From a virus: a stretch of DNA of 39,333 nt. Positions 4,593-31,472 of the stretch are shown here, piece after piece. How positions within the stretch are numbered: position 1 is the first letter of the stretch; every line of letters starts with the position of its first letter. Below the pieces are notes generated by a model. It was not told where the DNA came from. It saw nothing but the letters and a program-made list of their open reading frames with translations, and searched no databases. A program made the position numbers and the translations under genes. The stretch is from positions 1 to 39,333 of IMG/VR virus record IMGVR_UViG_3300044977_000035; one strand, written 5' to 3'.

Positions 4593-4769
4593 GTGCTTAT
4601 CCCTATCGCCGACGTTCTGGCGCTTATACCCGTCTCCCGAGCTACTCTTTACCTGCGCATGCAGGAGCCCGACTTCCCTAAAGCGATCAGGATCGGTGGC
4701 CGGGTCTTCTGGAAAACCGAAGAGATCCAGGCATATATCGATTCAAAACAAGAAAAAGCGGAGGCGTAA
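4593..4769 (+). CDS. AlpA-like small DNA-binding protein
   Basis: 58 residues from GTG 4593 with TAGGAG upstream. LIPIADVLALIPVSRATLY, then PDFPKAIRIGGRVFWKTEE and IQAYIDSK, match the AlpA/excisionase-type winged helix (helix-turn-helix, then a wing with the RVFW-type strand). Such proteins act as transcription activators or excisionases. Its TAA overlaps the ATG of the primase-helicase, so the two are translated together; AlpA-like genes beside RepA-type primases are also common in satellites and integrative elements. Here it could activate early genes or help open the origin (inference). Confidence 0.8.
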   Translation: MLIPIADVLALIPVSRATLYLRMQEPDFPKAIRIGGRVFWKTEEIQAYIDSKQEKAEA

Positions 4770-11683: not shown

Positions 11684-13848
11684 AAAAAGAAGAGAAGGAA
11701 AAGCCAGTCGTTGAGACTGTGGATTCGCGCGTCATTGACGCGGATCGCCTTAATGAAGAAATAGAGAATTGGGCCGAGGATCTGACTTCCGATGCGTATG
11801 CGGAAGCCATGAAACTGTACCCAAAAATCCAGAAGAGCTACGAAAACAAGCAGCAGCAATCGGACCGCGTGGAAGAGTGCTGGAACATCTACAACGCAAT
11901 TCCGGACGAGAATCAGCAGTATACCGGAAATTCACAATGCTATGTTCCAGTAGTCAGAGATTGCATTAACGCGCGCTGCAAGCGGACCCTAGCTACCCTC
12001 TTCCCGGCGAACTACAAACACGTAGACGCCGTAGGCCCTGCGGATATCACGCCTTTCCCTACGCTCGCCTTGCTTGAGCATTACATCCGCAAGACCAATC
12101 TGAAAGATATCGTGCGTGCGGACATCCTGTCCGGCGACGTGACAGGGCAATGGTGTCTGTACGTTGACTGGATGCGGACTACACGGCGTGTCACAGAACT
12201 AGTCAAGAAGCCGCCGATTCTGATGGATGAGGAAGCCGGTGTTGAGGCAGAAGACATCACGGTTGATGAAGAGTGGGATACCGAAGAGAAAGAGATCGTC
12301 GATGAGATGCCCGACATCACACCGATGGCGGTCGATGATCTGGTGGTGTATCCGCCTACGGTAAACGACGTTGAGAAAGCCACAGCCACGGCAGTGCGCC
12401 TGCGCCTGTCCAAGGAATCGGTCCAACAATTTGTGGATGAAGGCGTGTTCGTCGGCTGGAATGCCGAAGAAATCATGGACTTGCTAAACGAGCCCGATGG
12501 CGGCCGGCAGAAGCGCGTTCCGAACAAACGCCGCACGGCCGACGCAGGCGTGCGCACCGAAGGCACGTACAAGTACGCGCTTGTCTATGAGGTTCACGCG
12601 AACATCGAGTTGGAAGAAGACAAGGGCAAAGAGCCCGTTTTCATCTATTTTGCGGGTCCGGAAACGATTCTTGGGATTATCCGTAACCCCTTTTGGTCAA
12701 AAAAGCGGCCGATCATTACGGCACCGGTAGAGCGTATCCAGGGCACGATCTACGGCATTAGTCGGGTCGAACCTGTGAAATACATGCAGTGGAACATAAA
12801 CGATTATTTCAATATGGGAATGGACAGCGCGCAATATGCGCTGCTGCCTATCGTCATGACCGACCCGCTGGCGAACCCCAACTACCAGAGCATGGTGATG
12901 GGGCTGGCCGCCGTGTGGTTGACGAATCCCCAGACGACCCAGTTTGCCCAGTTTCCTGCGATCTACAAGGATGCCGTTGCCCTATGCAACGCCATCAAGG
13001 CGCAGATTCAGGAATCGATGGAAGTGAACGATGCCATGCTTGGCAAGATGCCGCAGGGCAAAAAGAATCAGGCGCAGGCCGCCGCACAGGCCCAGTCGCA
13101 GGAGTCGAATATCATTGACCACGCGAAGCGCTATGAAGGCTGCATGCTGAACCCGCTTCTGGAGCGCATGTTTGAGCTTGACCGCCAGTTCCGCACGAAG
13201 GAAATCACGGTCGTGACGATGGGCGAAGTAGGCGCACGGGCGAAGCAGGAAGAGATTCCCGTACAGGCATTCAACGAACGCTACTTCTTCCGCTGGTGCG
13301 GCACGGCCTACCAGACCGGCATGCAGCGCATGCAGCAGATGATTGCCTGGATGAACGTGCTACGCGGTGTGCCGCCCCAGCAGCTCGATGGCCGCCGGCT
13401 GAACGTGGGTCCGATCCTTGAGATGGGTACCGAGCAGATCTTCGGGCCTGAAGTCGGACCGCGTATCCTGATCGATGAGCGCAACCTGTACACCGTGGAC
13501 CCGAACGATGAAAACCTGATGATGCACAACGGCTTGCCTGCCGAAGTGCATCCGGCGGATGACGACCAGCAGCACATGGCTGCACACATGCATGGCGCGC
13601 AACTGACAGGCGATCCGCACGGCCTGTACCGCGCCCACATCCAGGCGCACCAGCAGGCGATGAACCAGAAGATGCAGGCGCAGATGCCGAAGCCCCAACC
13701 CGGCCAGCAGGGCGCACCGGGCGGAGCAGGACCCGGCATTGCTGGAACGCCGCGCCCCGGCGCGCAACCCGGCCAGCCGCGCCCGCAAGGCCCCGCTGGA
13801 ATGGTCAATCCTGACCAGATGCAAGACCCACAGGCGATGCCGCGATGA
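11665..13848 (+). CDS. Portal protein
   Basis: 727 residues from ATG 11665; the in-frame TTG upstream lacks support. Size, position after the terminase and features fit podovirus portals: an N-terminal helical wing (YENKQQQSDRVEECWNIYNA), a beta-rich middle (KYALVYEVHANIEL, PVFIYFAGPETILGI), the NPFWSKKRPIITAPVERIQG and YMQWNINDYFNMGMDSAQYA stretches, and a long helical barrel. The last 60 residues are Gln/Pro/Gly-rich and probably flexible inside the head. It forms the ring through which DNA enters and leaves. Its stop overlaps the M48-like gene start (ATGA). Confidence 0.87.
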   Translation: MARKAVKKEEKEKPVVETVDSRVIDADRLNEEIENWAEDLTSDAYAEAMKLYPKIQKSYENKQQQSDRVEECWNIYNAIPDENQQYTGNSQCYVPVVRDCINARCKRTLATLFPANYKHVDAVGPADITPFPTLALLEHYIRKTNLKDIVRADILSGDVTGQWCLYVDWMRTTRRVTELVKKPPILMDEEAGVEAEDITVDEEWDTEEKEIVDEMPDITPMAVDDLVVYPPTVNDVEKATATAVRLRLSKESVQQFVDEGVFVGWNAEEIMDLLNEPDGGRQKRVPNKRRTADAGVRTEGTYKYALVYEVHANIELEEDKGKEPVFIYFAGPETILGIIRNPFWSKKRPIITAPVERIQGTIYGISRVEPVKYMQWNINDYFNMGMDSAQYALLPIVMTDPLANPNYQSMVMGLAAVWLTNPQTTQFAQFPAIYKDAVALCNAIKAQIQESMEVNDAMLGKMPQGKKNQAQAAAQAQSQESNIIDHAKRYEGCMLNPLLERMFELDRQFRTKEITVVTMGEVGARAKQEEIPVQAFNERYFFRWCGTAYQTGMQRMQQMIAWMNVLRGVPPQQLDGRRLNVGPILEMGTEQIFGPEVGPRILIDERNLYTVDPNDENLMMHNGLPAEVHPADDDQQHMAAHMHGAQLTGDPHGLYRAHIQAHQQAMNQKMQAQMPKPQPGQQGAPGGAGPGIAGTPRPGAQPGQPRPQGPAGMVNPDQMQDPQAMPR

Positions 13849-14186
13849 TTGCGCGCTCAACCCTGTGGGGTACCGTCCAGTTTGGCGAGCACTTCTACCG
13901 CCTCACGCCACTAGAACAGGAAGCCGTCATCGCGCACGAGGAAGGGCACATCCACCACCGGCACGCGTGGAAGCGACTTAAGTGGATGCTTACTCTCCGC
14001 TGGATCCGGCACAGGGAAGAGCTTGAGCCGATGCTCGTCGCGCAGGAGCTGGAAGCCGACCAGTACGCCGCAGAGCGCGGGCACGCGCCGGGGCTGATCT
14101 CTTTCCTGCTACGATCCCCTCTGGACGCAAAGCTGGACGGGTATCCTACCCACCGGCAGCGCATAGGAGCGATCCATGTCCGATGA
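13845..14186 (+). CDS. M48-like zinc metallopeptidase
   Basis: 113 residues with HEEGHIHHRH (zinc motif His31-Glu32-x-x-His35) and a downstream ELEADQYA giving the third ligand, the signature of M48-type peptidases in minimal form. No signal peptide or membrane helices, unlike HtpX. It is linked to the portal stop by ATGA and runs 11 bases into the fibre-like gene. Among head genes it could trim scaffold or another head protein, or act on the cell envelope; the target is not known. Confidence 0.8.
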   Translation: MIARSTLWGTVQFGEHFYRLTPLEQEAVIAHEEGHIHHRHAWKRLKWMLTLRWIRHREELEPMLVAQELEADQYAAERGHAPGLISFLLRSPLDAKLDGYPTHRQRIGAIHVR

Positions 14187-21907: not shown

Positions 21908-22471
21908 ATGGCAATCATCGGAACGCTACCTAACAACATCCAGGACGGGCAGGCAGTAGACGCAAGCCCGGTGATGGCGGATTTCAACTTCATCGTTACC
22001 CAGGTGAATGCGAATGCCAACCCGACTGGCACGCTTACGGCACCCTCAGGCACCACGACTGTTTTCTACCAGGCAGCGGCTCCGGCAGGCTGGACCACGA
22101 ACAGCGGTTTTACCGATCATACCCTGTGGATCAGTGCGGCGAATGGCGGCACACAGGGCGGAGCGATAGCGTACAGCAACATGTTTTCCAACGCGTGGAC
22201 GAGCGGCGGCCATGCGCTCACCACGGCGGAACTCGCGGTGCACAACCACGGCGTGACTGATCCGCAGCATTTGCATGTGGTCGCGGCAGGCTCAGCGCTG
22301 GTGTCGCTCGCGACGGGCGGCGTGCAGTTCGATGTGATCAGCGGGAGCCAGAACACCGCGTCGGCTTCTACCGGAATCAGCATCCAGAACGCAGGTAGCG
22401 GAAATGCCCACTCGCACGTCACGCAGTTTAACGCCCAGTACGCGGCCATGATCATGGCGACGAAATCATGA
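21908..22471 (+). CDS. Tail collar/fibre protein with HxH metal-binding motifs
   Basis: 187 residues from ATG 21908. The start MAIIGTLPNNIQDGQAVDAS is common in short podovirus tail proteins. LAVHNHGVTDPQHLHVVAAG and NAHSHVTQF supply histidines like the metal sites of T4 gp12-type collar domains, and the C-terminal AAMIMATKS fits the closing strand of that fold. Likely a short tail fibre or collar. Its stop overlaps the next start (ATGA). Confidence 0.75.
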   Translation: MAIIGTLPNNIQDGQAVDASPVMADFNFIVTQVNANANPTGTLTAPSGTTTVFYQAAAPAGWTTNSGFTDHTLWISAANGGTQGGAIAYSNMFSNAWTSGGHALTTAELAVHNHGVTDPQHLHVVAAGSALVSLATGGVQFDVISGSQNTASASTGISIQNAGSGNAHSHVTQFNAQYAAMIMATKS

Positions 22472-22955: not shown

Positions 22956-23162
22956 ATGTTCGCAGCACTCGAAGCAGAATTCAATTCCATCATCAACGAT
23001 GTGAAGTCGGTTCCGGAGAAGCTGGAAGCGCTTGTCGGCCTGCACACGAAGTCGCAAGCCGTCGAAGCACTGGCCGCGCCGATGACGACGGTCATCGAAG
23101 ACGCGAGCAAGACAACGGAAGTCAAGGTCACGGAAATCCTGACGATGGTGGGCAAGCTGTGA
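22956..23162 (+). CDS. Small helical protein, 68 residues
   Basis: ATG 22956 with ACTAGGAG upstream. Begins MFAALEAEFNSIINDVKSVP; helical throughout with no membrane segment. Its stop overlaps the endolysin GTG (GTGA). Function unknown; possibly a lysis accessory. Confidence 0.7.
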   Translation: MFAALEAEFNSIINDVKSVPEKLEALVGLHTKSQAVEALAAPMTTVIEDASKTTEVKVTEILTMVGKL

Positions 23163-23701
23163 CTCCGGATACACTATCCGCAGCCCTTGGTATCCCGCTC
23201 GCGCGAGCGCAGACATGGGCTGATCCGTTATCTGCGGCGATGGCTCTTTATGCGATCGATTCGCCAGCGCGTCAGGCTGCGTTCCTCGCGCAGATCGGCC
23301 ACGAGTCCGGAGGCCTGATCTACGTGCGCGAACTGTGGGGGCCGACGCCGACGCAGGAAGGCTACGAAGGCCGCGCCGATCTCGGCAACACCGAACCGGG
23401 CGACGGGTTCAAATTCCGCGGCCGGGGCCTGATTCAGGTCACTGGTCGCGCGAACTACTCAACGTGTGGCGCAGCGCTGAACCTGCCTCTCACGGTTTCG
23501 CCTGAGTTACTCGAAGCCCCGGGCAATGCCGCGCAATCGGCAGCATGGTTCTGGACTTCGCGTAGCCTGAACGATCTGGCGGATATCGGCGATTTCAACA
23601 CGATCACTCGTCGGATTAATGGCGGGCTGAACGGGCTTGCGGACAGGCTGGCGCTTTACGCGTCCTGCCAGAAAGTATTGGGGGATGGCGATGGCACTTG
23701 A
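23159..23701 (+). CDS. GH19-type endolysin
   Basis: 180 residues, GTG start. QIGHESGGLIYVRELW carries the likely catalytic Glu49 and Glu58, FRGRGLIQVTGRANY is the substrate-cleft segment, and RINGGLNGLADRLALY is the C-terminal part typical of GH19 chitinase/lysozyme-like phage enzymes. It has no signal peptide, so it needs a holin to reach the wall. It cuts peptidoglycan glycan strands. Immediately followed by the holin. Confidence 0.9.
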   Translation: MTPDTLSAALGIPLARAQTWADPLSAAMALYAIDSPARQAAFLAQIGHESGGLIYVRELWGPTPTQEGYEGRADLGNTEPGDGFKFRGRGLIQVTGRANYSTCGAALNLPLTVSPELLEAPGNAAQSAAWFWTSRSLNDLADIGDFNTITRRINGGLNGLADRLALYASCQKVLGDGDGT

Positions 23702-24074
23702 TCCGATCACGGCAGGCGTAGATCTTGCCAATACGATTGTCTCGCGCATCTGGCCGGACAAGACGGCGGAGGAACAGCAGCAGTTGGCCGCCGTACTGTC
23801 GATGGTGCAAGGGCAGCTTGCGATCAATCAGGCGGAAGCGGGCAGCGCCAGCGCCTTTACATCAGGCTGGCGGCCGTACATAGGCTGGGTATGCGGCACG
23901 GGCTGCGCGTGGAACTGGATCGGTCTGCCTATCGCCACGTGGGCGGCGATGGCGCTCGGCCACCCGATCAACGTCTCGCCGGCAGATCTTACGCAGATGC
24001 TCCCGCTACTGATGGGCATGCTAGGCATGAGCGCGACGCACGCATGGGAAAACGTACAGACGAGCAAGAAATGA
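23691..24074 (+). CDS. Holin, 3TM family
   Basis: ATG 23691 gives about 6 bases after the GGGGG ribosome-like site; ATG 23685 is the alternative. The sequence starts MALDPITAGVDLANTIVSRI, has a charged stretch, then GSASAFTSGWRPYIGWVCGT, the hallmark of the 3TM holin family, with membrane segments there, at GLPIATWAAMALG and at LTQMLPLLMGMLGMSATH. It opens the inner membrane for the endolysin, whose gene overlaps its start. Confidence 0.82.
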   Translation: MALDPITAGVDLANTIVSRIWPDKTAEEQQQLAAVLSMVQGQLAINQAEAGSASAFTSGWRPYIGWVCGTGCAWNWIGLPIATWAAMALGHPINVSPADLTQMLPLLMGMLGMSATHAWENVQTSKK

Positions 24075-24295
24075 AACAGTACCTGATCAATTTCGCGATC
24101 CTGCTGGACGAACTGGGGAACACACTCACCGGCGGCGACCCGGGCGAGACGATCAGCAGCCGTGCAGGCAAGGGCCTGAAAGAGGGCAAGACATGGGCCT
24201 GCGTCCTGTGCCGCTTTCTTGACCTGTTCCAGAAGGACCATTGCCTGAAATCCATCAACCCTGACGACGGCACGCGAGCCGTGGTGAAAGACTGA
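24071..24295 (+). CDS. Conserved small phage protein, 74 residues
   Basis: ATGA overlap with the holin. Contains NFAILLDELGNTLTGGDPGE, TISSRAGKGLKEGKTWACVL and CRFLDLFQKDHCLKSI; three cysteines near a helix. From memory, a similar small protein is found beside lysis genes in many phages. No membrane segment, so not a spanin. Function unknown. Confidence 0.78.
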   Translation: MKQYLINFAILLDELGNTLTGGDPGETISSRAGKGLKEGKTWACVLCRFLDLFQKDHCLKSINPDDGTRAVVKD

Positions 24296-24858
24296 TGAAC
24301 AATCTAGTAAAAATCGCGCAGGGTATCGACACGGCACCACTCCTGCTCGCTATCGCGCGCCAGCCCCGGCTGTGGAACCGGCATGGGATGCGCACGGAGT
24401 ATGAACAGAGTCCGCACGCGCAGGCCGACGATATCTGGTTGCGGTTCAATGACGAAAAGCCGTTCAAGGAATCGGGCGACTACTCCGGGATCAGCGACCA
24501 GCACGACTCGATCTTCTATCCGGAATGGTACGCCCTGCCCCAGGCGCGGCCGATCGTCTACGGGCTCATGGCACGTGTCGAGGGAACCCGGCTCGGCGGC
24601 ATCCTGATTACCCGGATTCCAGCGGGCGGCCGCATCCTGCCGCACGTGGATGATTCGTGGCACGTGAAGCATTACAATACGAAAATTTACGTGGTCCTGC
24701 AAAGCAATCCGCAATGCGTGAACCGCGTTGAGGATGAACAGGTCGTGATGGCCCCCGGCGAGGCGTGGTACTTCGATAACACGAAGGAGCACGAAGTGGT
24801 GAACGACGGACCGGACGACCGGATCAGTCTTATCGTTTCGATCAGGTGCGAGAAATGA
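24295..24858 (+). CDS. Aspartyl/asparaginyl beta-hydroxylase-like 2OG-Fe(II) dioxygenase
   Basis: 187 residues, ATG on the previous stop (TGATG). The double-stranded beta-helix core has PHVDD (His117-x-Asp119), EHEVVNDG (His166) and DDRISLIV (Arg176, ten residues later), the Fe and 2-oxoglutarate set of the AspH-like family. Such enzymes hydroxylate protein side chains or small molecules. It overlaps a cupin gene and lies between the lysis genes and the internal virion proteins, so its substrate could be a virion or host protein (inference). Confidence 0.82.
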   Translation: MNNLVKIAQGIDTAPLLLAIARQPRLWNRHGMRTEYEQSPHAQADDIWLRFNDEKPFKESGDYSGISDQHDSIFYPEWYALPQARPIVYGLMARVEGTRLGGILITRIPAGGRILPHVDDSWHVKHYNTKIYVVLQSNPQCVNRVEDEQVVMAPGEAWYFDNTKEHEVVNDGPDDRISLIVSIRCEK

Positions 24859-25136
24859 TCAGCTTTCACAACATCGGCGGCGTGATCCTGCGCGAGGAAA
24901 AGCTCGAAGCCGGTCAGGAAGTTGAGAAGCACGTCCACGCTTACGACCACCTGAGCTATCTCGCGAGCGGACGAGCGCTGATCGAAATCGGCGATGAGCT
25001 ATTCATCATGGGCGGCCCCGCAGCGATAGAGGTAAAGGCAGGACAGAAACACCGGATTCAGGCCATCACCGATATCACGTGGCTGTGCATCCACGCGGAG
25101 GCAATTGCCGACCCGGAAACACTGAACAGGGAGTAG
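24855..25136 (+). CDS. Small cupin protein
   Basis: 93 residues from ATG 24855 (ATGA overlap with the dioxygenase). Cupin motif 1 is seen as KHVHAYDHLSYLASGRALIE (His26, His28, His32) and motif 2 as GQKHRIQA (His66), giving a plausible metal site. It could be a second enzyme or a sensor or partner for the dioxygenase. Translational coupling of the two suggests a joint reaction. Substrate unknown. Confidence 0.82.
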   Translation: MISFHNIGGVILREEKLEAGQEVEKHVHAYDHLSYLASGRALIEIGDELFIMGGPAAIEVKAGQKHRIQAITDITWLCIHAEAIADPETLNRE

Positions 25137-25139
25137 ATC

Positions 25140-26123
25140 ATGCCTTTTGCCATCGCGGCACCCGCCATCGGCGCCGGTATCTCCGCACTCACGGGCCCGA
25201 GCTCGCAGGCGAGTGGCGGTGGGTCAAACCTCTACACGCCCACGGGGCTCAGTACCGCCGATCAGACGTGGCAAGGTCTGCTCGGCAATGAGTACAACAC
25301 GTACAACCAGAACGGAATCAGCCAGTACGGCTTGCAATCCCTGCTCGCGGGGTTGCAGAACCAGCAGGCTTACGCGCCCCAGTTGCAGCAGGGCGCGAAT
25401 GCGGCCGGCGCGCAGTACGGCACGCTCGGCCAGCAGCTGGGCGGCGCTTCGGGCACGGAATTCAATGCTGCGAACCAGATTTACAACACCGCTTTCGACC
25501 CGCAGAACGCGCTGTTCAACCAGCTATCGAACCAGCAGCAGCAGCAAAGCGGCGCCACGAACTCGATGTACGGGCTCGGCTCTTCCGGCGTGGGCGCGGG
25601 AATCGCGAACCAGAACCAGCAGAACTTCGATATCAACTGGCAGAACCAGCAGTTAGGGCGCCAGACGCAGGGCTTGCAGGCCATCGGGCAGGCGTATGGG
25701 CAAGCGGGCCAGCTCGGGCAGGCAGGCGCACAGGCGACGCTCACAGGCAGCCAGTTGCCCTACCAGACCGCGCAGGGCATCGCAGGCACGCCGGGGCAAC
25801 TCGGGAACACCTACGGCCAGTACCTGCAATCGAACGTGTACAACCCGGCGCAAGGCATGGAAAGCCAGATCATCCCTTACCTGAATTACGGCCAGGGGGC
25901 GACAAGCAACGCCTACAATCAGGCATCGAACAGCGCGGGCGCACTGGGTAGCGCGGTCTCGCAGGGAATCGGCGGCCTGGGTACCCAGTTGCAGAACGCT
26001 GGCGGCTTCGCCAACCTGTTCGGCGGCACGACCGGCTCATTTGGCGGGGGTAACTTCTCCGGGGCGTTCAACTCCAATCCGTACTACAGTGGCGGCGGTA
26101 ACTCATACGGCTTCACGAGCTAG
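25140..26123 (+). CDS. Gln/Gly/Asn-rich internal virion protein candidate
   Basis: 327 residues, rich in Gln, Gly, Asn, Ala and Tyr, almost without charged residues after residue 60. It starts with a hydrophobic stretch (MPFAIAAPAIGAGISALTGP) and ends in a Gly/Ser/Tyr tail. The next two genes are also long, low-complexity and Ala/Gln-rich, the pattern of podovirus ejection proteins that leave the head with the DNA and form a channel through the envelope. Placed by composition and order only. Confidence 0.75.
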   Translation: MPFAIAAPAIGAGISALTGPSSQASGGGSNLYTPTGLSTADQTWQGLLGNEYNTYNQNGISQYGLQSLLAGLQNQQAYAPQLQQGANAAGAQYGTLGQQLGGASGTEFNAANQIYNTAFDPQNALFNQLSNQQQQQSGATNSMYGLGSSGVGAGIANQNQQNFDINWQNQQLGRQTQGLQAIGQAYGQAGQLGQAGAQATLTGSQLPYQTAQGIAGTPGQLGNTYGQYLQSNVYNPAQGMESQIIPYLNYGQGATSNAYNQASNSAGALGSAVSQGIGGLGTQLQNAGGFANLFGGTTGSFGGGNFSGAFNSNPYYSGGGNSYGFTS

Positions 26124-26131
26124 GGGGCATC

Positions 26132-27640
26132 ATGGCAGGACTTGGCGGCCTTCCCGCATTCCTCCAGTACCAGCAGGCGGCGCAGCAACAGGCGAACCAG
26201 AATCAGCAGGCGCAAATCCAGCTTGCCCAGTTCCAGCAGTCGCAGGCCCAGCAACGCCAGCAGCAGGCCGCAATGGCCGCTGCGGGTAACGCGCTGCCGC
26301 AACTGCTGGCCAGTGGTCAGGCAGGCGCGCCGCAGCAAGGGCAAATGCCGCCCCCGCCGCAGCCCCCTCAACCGGGTCAACCGTCACAGCCCCAGCAAGC
26401 TCCGCAACAGGCTGGCGCGCCCATGCCGGGGCAAGGTCCTGCACCGGGCGCCGTCAAGCCGCCCTTGCCCCCGTTTCGCCCCATGCCGACGACGCCTAGC
26501 CAGGTGCAGACCGCTCCTCAGGGCGCGATCCCTGCGCCTCCAGTACCTCAATCGGCGCCGCCCCAACAGCCCCAGCAAGGGCAGGGCGGCCCTTTGACCC
26601 TGCAAAGCGCGATCAAGGTCTTGCAGGACCAGGGTCTATCCGGCGCTGACCTCATGGTTGGATTGCAGCAACTGACGCCGTTGCTCGATGCGCAAGCCAA
26701 ACAGCAGGCAACGCAGGCACAGCAGCAGTTCAACCAGCAACTTCAGCTAGCCAAGCTGGGCGAAGCGCGCGATTCGTTGCAAGCCCGTATCGATGCTGCA
26801 AAGCAGGCGTCCGAAAACCGCAAGCTGGGAATCGAAGAGCGCGCACAAGCCGCTGCGGACTCGCGCGCCTTGCAAGGCCAGTTGCTTCAATTCCGCATGG
26901 ATGAGGCGCGTGCGAAACATGCCGCCGATCCCGATGCGAAGTTGAGTCCCGATGACGTGCACTTCCTCGCCCAGCAAGCCGTGGCCGGGGACACCTCCGT
27001 CTACCAGAACCTGGGACGCGGTGTGCAGGGCGCGCAAAATATCGTAGCCATCCGCCGCGAGGTGGAGAAGATCCGCACTGCGCAAGGCGAGACCGGAGCC
27101 GATCAGGCCGCCGCTACTGCCACCTTCCAGGGTGAGAAGGCAGCGGCGCGCACAGGCGCGACGAAGGCGGCGAACGTCGGGATGGCCGTGGCCGAAGCGC
27201 AGCAGACTTTCCCGATTGTCCGTCAGGCGTCGGCCGCATTGCCGCGTACGCAGTTTCCGGGCGTCAATGCCGCGATGCAGGCCGCGCAGACCGGCACGGG
27301 CGACCCGCGCGTGGTTGCGCTGGGCACCGCGCTAAACACCGCAGTGAACGCCTACTCACGAGCAATCAGCCCGACAGGTACGCCCACCGTGGCCGACAAG
27401 GAACACGCACGCGAACTGTTGACTACGGCGAGCACGCCCGAACAGCTCGACGCGGTGCTGAACGTTATGGAACGCGAAATGAAGGCAGCCCGTCAGGCGC
27501 CGGCTGAAGTGCAGGCACAGCAGAAAGCCCGCATTTCCGGTCGCGGCGAAGGCGCGCCGGCACCGGGTACCGTGGAAGGCGGTTACCGGTTCAAGGGCGG
27601 CGATCCGTCGCAGCAGTCGAGCTGGGAGAAAGTGCAATGA
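26132..27640 (+). CDS. Gln/Ala-rich internal virion protein candidate
   Basis: 502 residues. The first 60 are a Gln-rich helix (QYQQAAQQQANQNQQAQIQL), 70-160 a Pro/Gln linker, and the rest a long Ala/Gln coiled coil with charged spots (LGEARDSLQARIDAAKQASE). Ends YRFKGGDPSQQSSWEKVQ. Likely an ejection protein; its stop overlaps the next start. Confidence 0.75.
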   Translation: MAGLGGLPAFLQYQQAAQQQANQNQQAQIQLAQFQQSQAQQRQQQAAMAAAGNALPQLLASGQAGAPQQGQMPPPPQPPQPGQPSQPQQAPQQAGAPMPGQGPAPGAVKPPLPPFRPMPTTPSQVQTAPQGAIPAPPVPQSAPPQQPQQGQGGPLTLQSAIKVLQDQGLSGADLMVGLQQLTPLLDAQAKQQATQAQQQFNQQLQLAKLGEARDSLQARIDAAKQASENRKLGIEERAQAAADSRALQGQLLQFRMDEARAKHAADPDAKLSPDDVHFLAQQAVAGDTSVYQNLGRGVQGAQNIVAIRREVEKIRTAQGETGADQAAATATFQGEKAAARTGATKAANVGMAVAEAQQTFPIVRQASAALPRTQFPGVNAAMQAAQTGTGDPRVVALGTALNTAVNAYSRAISPTGTPTVADKEHARELLTTASTPEQLDAVLNVMEREMKAARQAPAEVQAQQKARISGRGEGAPAPGTVEGGYRFKGGDPSQQSSWEKVQ

Positions 27641-29178
27641 TGCCGTGGGAAAAGTACGCACAGGACACCGCCGCCGACACGACCGGCCCTTGGGACAAGT
27701 ACAAGGGCGCGAGCGCTGCACCGGCGCAGGCCGCCGCGCCTGCCAGTCCGCTCGATCGTCTCCCGCCGGACGTGTCTCCCGGTAACCAGCAACCAAAGAA
27801 TGCTGACGACATCGCGCACCGCGTGCTTGGACTCGGCGAGGCCGGTCTGTCTGCTGCGACTGGCGCAGTGGGCGGCGCGGCCGGCCAGCTGTACGGCATC
27901 GGCAAGACGCTTGCAAGCGGCAAGTTCGGCACGCAACAGGGCGTCCAGCAGGGCGAACAGGCAGGCGTGAACCTCGCTAACAAGCTCACCTATCAACCAC
28001 GTACGCAGACCGGCCAGGGGCTCACGGAAGACGTAGGCAAGGCGTTCGAAGCATCTCGCCTTCAAGGCTTACCCGTCGAAGCCGGAACCTTGGGCCGCAT
28101 CGGGGAGGTTCCGCGCGGCGCTTTGGCGACGGGAGAAGGCGCAGCGAACATCGCAGGAAAGGGCGCGGCCGCAGTCGGGAAGGCGGCGGGCAGCGCGGCC
28201 GCAAAAGCACTTCCCGAAGTCGATCCGGCAACCGCCGCACTGGCTCGCGACGCGCACGCAATGGGTTTTCGCCTCACGCCGGACCAGGTAGTGGGCGGCA
28301 AGTACGCGAAGGCAATTGGCGAAGGCGCGGCCAATCTGCCGCTATCCGGCAGCAACCTGAAGTACAACCGGGACGTGTTCACGCAGAACGTAGCCAAGCT
28401 GGCCGGCGTCGAGGGCGACAAGCTGACGCGCAAAGCGTTCGGAGATGCGACGAAGAAAGTCGGCTCAGGCATTGGTGAGCTGAACAATAAGTACGACTTG
28501 CCCATCGATAAGTCTTTTGTGCCACAACTGCGTACGGAAGCACGAGGCCAGTCGCCCGAAGTGGCTGGCGCAGTGAACTACTTCGCGGATCGTATCGCAA
28601 AGAACACGGCTGGCGGCAATCTCAATGGAACCGTGTTCCGGCGCATCAACACCGAGCTAAACAACCGCATCAAGACGACTAGCAACGGCGACCTGAAGTA
28701 CGCGCTCGGCAACATGCAGGACAAGTTGCTCGACCTGCAACAGGCGCAGATGAGCCCCGCCGACAAGGCAGCACTTCAGGGCTTGCGACGCACGTATGCG
28801 ATTCAGCGCACCATTGAGCCACTGGTTGCGAAGAGCCCTACTGGTGATGTTGCTCCCTCGGCGCTGCTCGGTGCGATTACTTCCACTAAAGCGGGCAAGG
28901 CGGCGGCCGCACGCGGCGCGTCGGGCGATCTTGGCAAGCTGGCGGATATAGGCCAGCGCTTCCTCAAGGAAAACCCCTCCAGCGGGACGGCGGAGCGTAG
29001 CTGGGCGCAAGGCATTCCCTCCGCGCTTGGCGGCCTCGCAGGCGGCACGGCGGGTGTGGCGGGGGCAGGTTTGGGCGCACTAGGAGCGGCAGCAGGCACT
29101 ATCGGCGCAGCGAACCTGTACAACCGGTTCGGGCCTGCTATCACTAATCGGTTGATCGGTGTACCGCCCATGCCGTGA
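27637..29178 (+). CDS. Ala/Gly-rich internal virion protein candidate
   Basis: 513 residues, starting ATGATG on the previous stop. The N-terminus has two WxKY-type repeats (PWEKYAQD, PWDKYKGA). The middle is Ala/Gly-rich helix (GEGAANIAGKGAAAVGKAAG), and the C-terminus has hydrophobic Gly/Ala stretches (ALGGLAGGTAGVAGAGLGAL) that could cross a membrane. Fits a podovirus DNA-ejection protein. Last gene of the main late operon. Confidence 0.75.
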   Translation: MMPWEKYAQDTAADTTGPWDKYKGASAAPAQAAAPASPLDRLPPDVSPGNQQPKNADDIAHRVLGLGEAGLSAATGAVGGAAGQLYGIGKTLASGKFGTQQGVQQGEQAGVNLANKLTYQPRTQTGQGLTEDVGKAFEASRLQGLPVEAGTLGRIGEVPRGALATGEGAANIAGKGAAAVGKAAGSAAAKALPEVDPATAALARDAHAMGFRLTPDQVVGGKYAKAIGEGAANLPLSGSNLKYNRDVFTQNVAKLAGVEGDKLTRKAFGDATKKVGSGIGELNNKYDLPIDKSFVPQLRTEARGQSPEVAGAVNYFADRIAKNTAGGNLNGTVFRRINTELNNRIKTTSNGDLKYALGNMQDKLLDLQQAQMSPADKAALQGLRRTYAIQRTIEPLVAKSPTGDVAPSALLGAITSTKAGKAAAARGASGDLGKLADIGQRFLKENPSSGTAERSWAQGIPSALGGLAGGTAGVAGAGLGALGAAAGTIGAANLYNRFGPAITNRLIGVPPMP

Positions 29179-29491: not shown

Positions 29492-29511
29492 ACTATAGCA
29501 ATTGCAAAATG
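29492..29511 (-). promoter_or_regulatory. Phage promoter/operator element, copy 4, for the lipoprotein-like gene
   Basis: On the minus strand CATTTTGCAATTGCTATAGT, with a perfect GCAATTGC core, 26 bases before ATG 29466. The ATG of the divergent ATP-grasp gene (29509) lies inside its far end. Confidence 0.65.
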
Positions 29512-30852
29512 AAAATACTAGTCATAGATGTCGGATCGAACGCGCTTGACCTGTGCATGCGCTGGCAGATGCAGGGCCATATCGTGAAGTGGTACGACAA
29601 ACCGCGTCCTGACGGCACCGACCGCCACGCGGGTGAGGGCATCGTGGAGAAGATCCGCGATTTCAATGACCTGCGAAAGAAGTGGATCGGCTGGGCGGAT
29701 CTCATCTACACGCCTGACAATGTGTGCTATCTCGATCTGCTGGAGCCCTACCGCAAGATCGGTTACCCCATCTTCGGTTGCAATCTCGAAGCTGTGGAGT
29801 GGGAGCTGGACCGCGAAGTCGGACAGAAGGTCATGGAGGAATGCGGCATGCCGGTCATTCCGGGCAAGACCTTTCACGACTACGATTCAGCGGCGGCTTA
29901 CGTAAAGAAGGAGGGTAAAGCGTTCGTCTCCAAGCCTTCCGGCGACGGCGAGCGTGCAATGTCCTACGTCGCGAATAACGCGGCGGATATGGTCTACATG
30001 CTGGAGCGTTGGAAGAAGATTCCGAAGTACGTGAAAGCGGCCCGCGAAGAGGGGTTTATTCTCCAGACCAAGGTAGACGGGATGGAAATGGCTGTCGGCG
30101 GCTGGTTTGGTCCAGGCGGCTGGAGCGCCGCCGGGTGGGTTGAAAACTTCGAGAACAAGAAACTCATGAACGGCGATCTCGGGGTCAACACTGGCGAAAT
30201 GGGCACTACCGTCCGGGTTATTCGAAAAAGCAAACTGGCGGATATGGTCCTTAAGCCAGCTACGGAGCACCTGAAGCGCGTCGGGTATGTCGGCTACGTC
30301 GATGTGAACTGCATGATAACGCACGATGGAACCCCCTACCCGCTCGAGTGGACGATGCGCGACGGCTGGCCGATCCGCCACAACCTGACGGCACTGATTG
30401 AAGGCGATCAGGCCCAGTGGATGCTGGACCTGATCAACGGCAAGGATACGCTGAAGATAAAGCGCGATACGGTCTGCATCTCCGTCCTGATGGCGCTTCC
30501 TGACTTCCCTTATTCGAAGATCACGAACAAGGAACTGTGCGGAATCCCGATCTATAATGCGGAAGACCTCGATCACCTGCACTACTCTGAAGTCATGATT
30601 GGCACGGCGCCGCGCGAGGTGAACGGCAAGGTAGTCAGTCTTCCGGGTCCCGTAACCGCAGGCGATTATGTGCTTGTCGCCACGGGGCAGGGAGAGTCGA
30701 TAACAGGCGCACGCCGCAGCGCCTACAGCGCATTGAAAAAGGTGAAGATACCCAACTCGCCTTTTTACAGGACGGACATTGGTGCGGGCCGTTTGAAAAA
30801 ACAGCTTCCCGATCTTCAGCGCCTGGGGTACGCAATAGGTCTTTCTTACTAG
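29509..30852 (+). CDS. PurD-like ATP-grasp ligase
   Basis: 447 residues. The start MKILVIDVGSNALDLCMRWQ is a Rossmann strand, so the start codon is credible although no Shine-Dalgarno lies before it. The ATP-grasp middle has AFVSKPSGDGERAMSYVANN, ILQTKVDGMEMAVGG and VDVNCMI...YPLEWTMRDGWP, the ATP- and metal-binding places. The whole looks like phosphoribosylamine-glycine ligase (PurD), but a phage copy next to an HExxH protein may join an amino group to another substrate or to a peptide. Amidoligase systems with peptidases in phages have been proposed from comparative genomics. Reaction unproven. Confidence 0.82.
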   Translation: MKILVIDVGSNALDLCMRWQMQGHIVKWYDKPRPDGTDRHAGEGIVEKIRDFNDLRKKWIGWADLIYTPDNVCYLDLLEPYRKIGYPIFGCNLEAVEWELDREVGQKVMEECGMPVIPGKTFHDYDSAAAYVKKEGKAFVSKPSGDGERAMSYVANNAADMVYMLERWKKIPKYVKAAREEGFILQTKVDGMEMAVGGWFGPGGWSAAGWVENFENKKLMNGDLGVNTGEMGTTVRVIRKSKLADMVLKPATEHLKRVGYVGYVDVNCMITHDGTPYPLEWTMRDGWPIRHNLTALIEGDQAQWMLDLINGKDTLKIKRDTVCISVLMALPDFPYSKITNKELCGIPIYNAEDLDHLHYSEVMIGTAPREVNGKVVSLPGPVTAGDYVLVATGQGESITGARRSAYSALKKVKIPNSPFYRTDIGAGRLKKQLPDLQRLGYAIGLSY

Positions 30853-30860
30853 GAGTCATC

Positions 30861-31472
30861 TTGAAAATCTCCGAGCCCTATCCGGGCGTTTTACATCTTG
30901 AGTTTGCGACTCGCAAAGACCTTACTTTGACGATGGCACGCGTACAAGAATTTTACGAATCGCCCTATCCGCACATCAAAGGGCGCTATTTCACCTGGGC
31001 GCAGTTTGTTGATGCGTACTCTGACGACAAGGGCAATCTGACCTACTTTCAGGAGTGGGAAGGGTTCAACGTCCCTCGCGCGATTCTGACCACGTTTTAT
31101 CAGATTTTCACAGATCTTTCGCCGCGCGAGGAGTGGCTGCGTACAGTGTCCGACGAATGCGAATATCTGATCGGCACCGATAAGGATAGTGACCCGTCTG
31201 CGGTCCTGCATGAGCTTGCGCATGCAAAATACAAACTGAACCCCGAGTACAGAAAACAGGTTCGCGCGATAACTGACAAGATGACGCAGGATCTTGGCTT
31301 TCGTTTCCAGCGCGATCTCCGCGCGGCCGACTACCCTGACGATGTTGAAATACTTCGTGATGAGGTTCACGCCTACCTCAAAACGTCAACGGAAGAGGAA
31401 CTAGTGGAGACGTTCCCCAGCGTGTCGCCTGAAGAGCGCGCACCCTATGAAGCAGCATTACGCCTGTTATAG
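30861..31472 (+). CDS. HExxH metallopeptidase-like protein
   Basis: 203 residues from TTG 30861, fixed by AGGAG five bases upstream. VLHELAHAKYKL gives the zinc motif His117-Glu118-x-x-His121, and RDEVHAYL (Glu168, His170) 50 residues later offers the third ligand, as in gluzincin-like peptidases. The N-terminus has a beta-rich domain (IKGRYFTWAQFVDAYSDDKG). No signal peptide. It follows the ATP-grasp gene by eight bases and probably works with it, for example to cut a substrate before or after ligation (inference). Confidence 0.75.
   Translation: MKISEPYPGVLHLEFATRKDLTLTMARVQEFYESPYPHIKGRYFTWAQFVDAYSDDKGNLTYFQEWEGFNVPRAILTTFYQIFTDLSPREEWLRTVSDECEYLIGTDKDSDPSAVLHELAHAKYKLNPEYRKQVRAITDKMTQDLGFRFQRDLRAADYPDDVEILRDEVHAYLKTSTEEELVETFPSVSPEERAPYEAALRLL

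Follow-up and report, generated by a model that had tools for sequence, protein, structure and literature searches.

The window, i.e., the whole stretch of 39,333 nucleotides that was analysed (IMG/VR virus record IMGVR_UViG_3300044977_000035, positions 1 to 39,333), carries a gene for a 2OG-Fe(II) oxygenase which overlaps a gene for a small cupin. Both ORFs lie where an earlier note on this DNA, made from the sequence alone, had placed them, and both passed the respective family profiles. The pair and its neighbours are arranged as follows:

23159..23701, + strand: endolysin (GH19 / phrog_181), lysis part of the oxygenase-cupin operon
23688..24074, + strand: three-TM holin (GTA_holin_3TM, PF11351)
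24071..24295, + strand: small protein (phrog_34710 / phrog_3342), translationally coupled to the oxygenase by a stop/start overlap at 24293-24297
24295..24858, + strand: 2OG-Fe(II) oxygenase of 187 aa, PF05118 (AspH / proline cis-hydroxylase family), with H117, D119, H166 and R176
24855..25136, + strand: single-domain cupin of 93 aa, PF07883, start ATG 24855, with invariant H26, H28, H32, H66 as well as C78 and H80
25140..26123, + strand: putative DNA-ejection-type protein (gp7/gp14-like) with the Gly/Ala zipper N-terminus MPFAIAAPAIGAG, assigned by profile comparison and position
26132..27640, + strand: Gln-rich second gene of a presumed ejection/internal virion cluster, assigned by position only, with no family match
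27637..29178, + strand: third large gene of the same presumed cluster, assigned by position only, with no family match

The reading frames are tightly interlocked. The stop codon of the small gene overlaps the oxygenase start in the sequence TGATG, oxygenase and cupin share an ATGA (cupin ATG at 24855, oxygenase TGA at 24856-24858) and the ejection-type gene begins 4 nt after the cupin. For the cupin, the ATG at 24855 is favoured by its relatives over the longer listed form starting with GTG (24846). The late context described in the earlier note was confirmed: endolysin, three-TM holin, the oxygenase-cupin pair and virion genes follow one another in a single gene run. A scan confined to the sigma-70 consensus revealed no promoter-like site between positions 22000 and 30000.

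Further along the late region, positions 29509-30852 encode a PurD-like ATP-grasp protein (TIGR00877 with E=1.9e-32 but far below the cutoff; PF01071, E=3.4e-10), which is followed at 30861-31472 by an ORF that contains the motif HELAH and matches no family. Two ORFs outside this region were also noticed. The ORF at 1954-2709 is composed of long SAARSAAWSAA-type short repeats and has no match in Pfam or NCBIfam; its opposite strand likewise reads as an Arg-rich repeat ORF. At 13845-14186 a small M48-like metallopeptidase (PF01435, E=2.8e-6) containing HEEGHIHH directly precedes the gene at 14176.

The oxygenase matches PF05118 (Asp_Arg_Hydrox) with 54.5 bits at a cutoff of 22.6. H117, D119, H166 and R176 are invariant across 44 oxygenase relatives and were therefore assigned to a metal and 2OG site of the type HxD...H...R. 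In the AlphaFold model (pLDDT 96.3, pTM 0.91) the protein adopts a double-stranded beta-helix. The closest solved folds are a proline 3-hydroxylase (Z 15.8), a nucleoside-antibiotic hydroxylase (15.6) and L-proline cis-4-hydroxylase (14.9), and the top sequence match is 4p7w (E=2.8e-9). PHD2 and human AspH trail the top fold matches by about 1-2 Z units, and with neighbours of such similar score the substrate type is not fixed by the fold. The term "AspH-like", as used in the earlier note, holds at the family level but not for the metal motif, which is HxD...H...R as in proline cis-hydroxylases and not HxG...H. An animal-type AspH was rejected, as the phage protein has HVD where human AspH has HTG in the alignment, and a TPR domain is absent from its 187 aa. 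Rejected as well was the architecture of the free-proline cis-3/cis-4 hydroxylases (about 290 aa including a C-terminal region), given that the phage protein stops at 187 aa; the solved proline hydroxylase chains measure 290-292 aa, and their alignment with the phage oxygenase reaches only about their residue 175-179.

The cupin passes PF07883 (Cupin_2) with 31.2 bits at a cutoff of 27.2, and its four His residues H26, H28, H32 and H66 together with C78 and H80 are invariant in 20 cupin sequences. The AlphaFold model has a pLDDT of 88.7 and a pTM of 0.78. Purifying selection acts on both genes, with pairwise dN/dS values of 0.12-0.23 for the cupin and 0.05-0.12 for the oxygenase. Due to the invariant metal residues, the fold matches and the low dN/dS, oxygenase and cupin look like maintained metalloproteins. 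A reading of the cupin as short tail fibre adhesin, derived from the label of PHROG 24280/12032, was discarded for this 93-aa globular cupin because the PHROG label also covers small cupins that Xanthomonas phages encode in their replication region. One of these is the small cupin of Xanthomonas phage Elanor (URA07046.1; L085:5947-6312), which is labelled "short tail fiber adhesin" and lies near the DNA polymerase. This gene is probably mislabelled; PHROGs 24280 and 12032 are labelled similarly. In those Xanthomonas phages a gene overlaps the cupin as well, which by Pfam is no oxygenase.

The earlier note had suggested that co-occurrence across phage genomes should be checked, and the two genes do co-occur elsewhere. 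A cupin adjoins the oxygenase in every close IMG/VR relative of the latter. For a wider set, IMG/VR and GTDB genomes were searched with profiles and near-copies were removed, which left 126 loci: in 82 of them the cupin directly follows the oxygenase, in 12 it directly precedes it, in 11 a GNAT acetyltransferase gene follows instead, five have neither partner and 16 form a bacterial outgroup. Restricted to the loci found through the oxygenase and not picked for the cupin, these numbers are 72, 7, 11, 5 and 16. Thus, the cupin is adjacent in 79 of the 95 distinct phage-type oxygenase loci of the oxygenase search, whereas a GNAT takes its place in 11 and five have neither. Cupin and GNAT together were found in none of the loci. 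The pairing persists despite inversion of the gene order, and the genes overlap or sit within a few bases of each other. None of the 16 bacterial AspH outgroup loci has a cupin or GNAT of these families alongside. In the phylogenetic tree the phage oxygenases split from the bacterial outgroup with a support of 99; the cupin-paired oxygenases and those occurring alone form one clade (99) which is separate from the GNAT-paired ones, and few partner changes are seen.

Among 40 close relatives, which were identified by means of the major capsid protein and extend at least 7.5 kb downstream of it, 39 keep both genes. The pair therefore behaves like a core gene pair in this lineage, and the view of the earlier note that a basic phage needs neither gene holds only in part.

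Genes of other kinds were also observed in or beside this position. In one locus a sulfotransferase-like ORF, recognised by eye from the sequence GLPRSRTAWFS, lies directly 5' of the oxygenase (L259:9547-10002), and a third kind of group-transfer enzyme may therefore use the slot. Two Vibrio phages of the Zobellviridae (L278:5989-6492 and L280:5974-6429) carry a GNAT of the slot family and no oxygenase; there the GNAT is flanked by head and tail genes on one side and by a small zipper-type gene and then a very large gene on the other.

Comparison of the flanking sequences showed that the upstream neighbours are diverse and comprise 27 sequence clusters in 101 loci, while on the downstream side a gp7/gp14-type DNA-ejection gene is present almost without exception and usually begins 2-4 nt past the cassette. 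Its product is short and opens with a Gly/Ala zipper, and the equivalent gene in related loci matches P22 gp7 / DNA ejection (phrog_598, PF25688, phrog_21132). The window protein itself (25140-26123) has no direct family match; its profile was recovered against the DNA-ejection group of the related loci with a probability of 80% and E=1.3e-5.

The N-terminus of the ejection protein follows the set of enzymes encoded beside it. Several miscalled starts of ejection genes were settled by hand or by eye before the N-termini were counted. In the clade with oxygenase and cupin or oxygenase alone, the ejection protein starts with Met-Pro-[Trp/Phe/Tyr] in 98 of 99 loci. One prophage of this type, with an MPW/MPF ejection protein, is that of Paraburkholderia tropica LMG 22274 (L237). 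In the single exception, L131, an HNH-like ORF (by eye; past position 4600) sits between the cupin on one side and the ejection gene on the other. The MP[WFY] start was present in none of the nine resolvable loci with oxygenase and GNAT, most of which start with MVA; Pseudomonas phage PfAn1, for instance, combines oxygenase and GNAT with an MVAAAVG start. For a test blind to the enzymes, IMG/VR DNA was scanned for ATGCCNTGGGGNGCNGC, which marks MPWGAA ejection genes, and for MVAAAVG as a control. The counts cover distinct ejection-like ORFs preceded by 1.2 kb or more of DNA, whereby "ejection-like", a definition set after the first loci had been seen, refers to a length of at least 110 aa and to A/G/S/N/Q making up half or more of the first 60 residues. 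Among the matches listed, MPWGAA ORFs were accompanied by an oxygenase in 26 of 26 and by a cupin in 23 of 26 cases; the listed MVAAAVG matches had oxygenase and GNAT in 16 of 23 cases, neither in seven and a cupin in none. The difference between the two sets of listed matches corresponds to a Fisher p of 0.003 for the oxygenase and 5e-11 for the cupin, both calculated with kinship ignored.

The sole pair-less member among the 40 capsid relatives (L611) carries a GNAT of the slot family, which replaces the pair in place. Its ejection protein starts with MGGLVGG, is homologous over the remainder and has no Met-Pro start. The N-terminus of T7 gp14 (MCWAAA) is similar, yet T7 has neither oxygenase nor cupin, and P22 gp7 carries PWGAAIGGG at its C-terminus, also without the two enzymes. 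Since the oxygenase also occurs together with MVA N-termini lacking Pro2, this residue is not a universal substrate. The lack of Pro2 in phages with oxygenase and GNAT, together with MVAAAVG proteins free of these enzymes, means that the simple equation of the oxygenase with an N-terminal prolyl hydroxylase fails for some members of the family.

Because of the pairing, the constant downstream ejection gene, the N-terminus tracking the enzymes, the replacement in L611, the proline hydroxylases among the nearest folds and the lack of an own promoter in the sigma-70 scan, we tentatively favour, as a possibility somewhat short of probable, that the pair is a late-expressed maturation cassette modifying the adjacent gp7/gp14-type ejection protein. 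Activity, substrate, target residue and purpose we infer alike. Translational coupling would ensure that oxygenase, cupin and ejection protein are made together. The oxygenase would then hydroxylate the ejection protein using Fe(II), O2 and 2-oxoglutarate, most plausibly near the conserved N-terminus, where Pro2 and the aromatic residue 3 would be exposed after removal of Met; a candidate substrate peptide is PFAIAAPAIGAG. The four-His cupin might serve as an auxiliary metalloenzyme for this protein, and in other phages a GNAT may substitute for the cupin or for the entire pair, with a different N-terminus of the client. The purpose could be to stabilise or solubilise the outer-membrane pore or to help its insertion into the membrane; T7 gp14 is such an outer-membrane pore and is water-insoluble without its partner (PMC8954989). 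The earlier note had named a virion protein or a host molecule as target. The virion branch is favoured by the constant ejection neighbour and the covarying N-terminus; nothing specific supports the host molecule.

A more general form of the maturation proposal, which we regard as unlikely, is that exchangeable phage cassettes covalently mark the N-terminus of pore ejection proteins: oxygenase and cupin would hydroxylate a Pro-aromatic start, a GNAT would acetylate starts with small residues, and client and enzymes would co-evolve. Acetylation of small-residue starts by the GNAT is compatible with the rule, established in eukaryotes, that an N-terminal proline blocks N-acetylation (PMC2762599). 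The idea is weakened by the existence of MVAAAVG ejection proteins without GNAT and by small second residues being common anyway.

Alternatively, the oxygenase might hydroxylate a free small molecule, e.g., proline or another amino acid, and form with the cupin an auxiliary metabolic pair which adjusts the metabolism or 2OG of the host in late infection. The top sequence and fold matches do include the free L-proline cis-4- and 3-hydroxylases, and earlier authors class phage AspH/2OG genes as AMGs (PMC12195039; PMC3037559). We consider this improbable, though credible: the gene to which the module is tied is structural and not metabolic, the 187-aa protein ends without the additional C-terminal region of the 290-aa proline hydroxylases, and late coupled expression would be odd for a metabolic gene.

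A further possibility is that the target modified before lysis is a different phage protein (of the tail or fibre, or the second or third ejection protein) or a component of the host envelope, and that the ejection gene is a neighbour by position only. Tail and lysis genes also belong to the operon, lipid hydroxylases are among the members of PF05118, and the oxygenase matches LpxO weakly (E=0.0055, far under the cutoff). We judge such a target as doubtful, since the ejection gene is constant while the upstream tail and lysis neighbours vary, and the enzyme is small and its score is not at the level of LpxO.

Somewhat less likely than these two is an insertion-slot (moron) effect, in which the gap before ejection genes tolerates accessory genes and the correlation arises through linkage and common descent. 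GNAT, the sulfotransferase-like ORF (L259) and the HNH gene (L131) also lie in or beside the slot, and few partner changes are needed on the tree. As cassette and ejection gene are adjacent, one recombination could carry the cassette along with the 5' end of the ejection gene, and linkage or ancestry may explain the N-terminal correlation, for the replacement in L611 is a lone case and the deeper division coincides with one branch of the tree. For further cassette swaps, 398 bacterial genomes of one family were searched, and the ejection gene was found in 10. Six of these have an intact pair, in one (L640) an inserted element truncates the cupin, and the other three (L641-L643) either have unrelated DNA immediately 5' of the ejection gene or are broken loci, so that no informative swap was among them. 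With regard to the features of a moron, the sigma-70 scan revealed no promoter-like site, stops and starts overlap and 39 of 40 close relatives keep the pair; this retention, the purifying selection and the lack of an own promoter in that scan speak against the insertion-slot effect, as do the pairing that survives inversion and the presence of just two main partner types which never occur together.

Highly improbable is a non-catalytic role of both proteins as chaperones or scaffolds that keep company with a very insoluble ejection protein, as T7 gp13 or P22 gp14 do by position. T7 gp14 does require a partner (PMC8954989), and T7 gp13 ("probable scaffold") and P22 gp14 (head morphogenesis) fill the equivalent slot, but the catalytic residues are invariant in both the oxygenase and the cupin family and the slot GNAT has no detected sequence homology to gp13 or P22 gp14.

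Phage AspH genes have been reported earlier for Limnohabitans phage DC33, cyanophages and pelagimyophages (PMC12195039, PMC3037559, PMC7029224); in the parts of these reports considered here they are treated only as auxiliary metabolic or host-type genes, and neither a cupin nor a link to ejection proteins is mentioned. Both protein families are known, but the cassette is undescribed in the open-access literature searched: within this scope no report was found of the oxygenase-cupin pair, the exchange with GNAT or the link to ejection proteins. In a review on ejection proteins (PMC8954989) the words hydroxylation, acetylation and post-translational are absent. Ejection proteins build the DNA-delivery channel of short-tailed phages, and the maturation of these very insoluble proteins is poorly understood. 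If the maturation proposal is true, virion assembly would include a maturation step carried out by a conserved and exchangeable enzyme module, and phage "AspH" genes, until now classed as metabolic, would gain a concrete, testable substrate.

Compared with known systems, the cassette shows partial likeness to several. The AspH of DC33 branches with the phage-type oxygenases and is directly followed by a GNAT. The database record of this phage (L003; PQ492659.1) says Inoviridae, while its paper describes a tailed dsDNA phage; the classification is likely a taxonomy error of the database. In T7 (genes 13-14) and P22 (genes 14-7) a small gene, encoding gp13 and gp14, respectively, also stands directly before the gene of the outer-membrane-pore ejection protein (PMC8954989), but T7 gp13 (PF11090) and P22 gp14 (PF11039) belong to other Pfam families than the cassette enzymes. 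A homology of the slot GNAT to either of them was considered and rejected, as profile comparisons found none. The small four-His cupin TM1459, whose Mn-binding site is formed by H52/H54/H58/H92 with Cys106 nearby, has a His spacing of 2/4/34 identical to that of the phage cupin, and in both a Cys follows the site (PMC5031596). The structures of TM1459 and KdgF match the model of the phage cupin with fold Z 11-12, but identity is 12-19% and alkene cleavage or uronate chemistry has no support here. Animal AspH (5jqy) shares with the phage oxygenase the Pfam family, the fold (Z 14.2) and the 2OG-binding Arg, but has HxG, without the metal carboxylate, in place of the HxD of the phage enzyme, and contains a TPR domain which the latter lacks. 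L-proline cis-4-hydroxylase (4p7w/4p7x) and proline 3-hydroxylase type II (1e5r/1e5s), the proline hydroxylases among the top fold matches (Z 14.8-15.8), resemble the oxygenase in the double-stranded beta-helix and in HxD...H...R; with about 290 aa, an extra C-terminal region, 19-22% identity and free proline as substrate, they differ from the phage enzyme.
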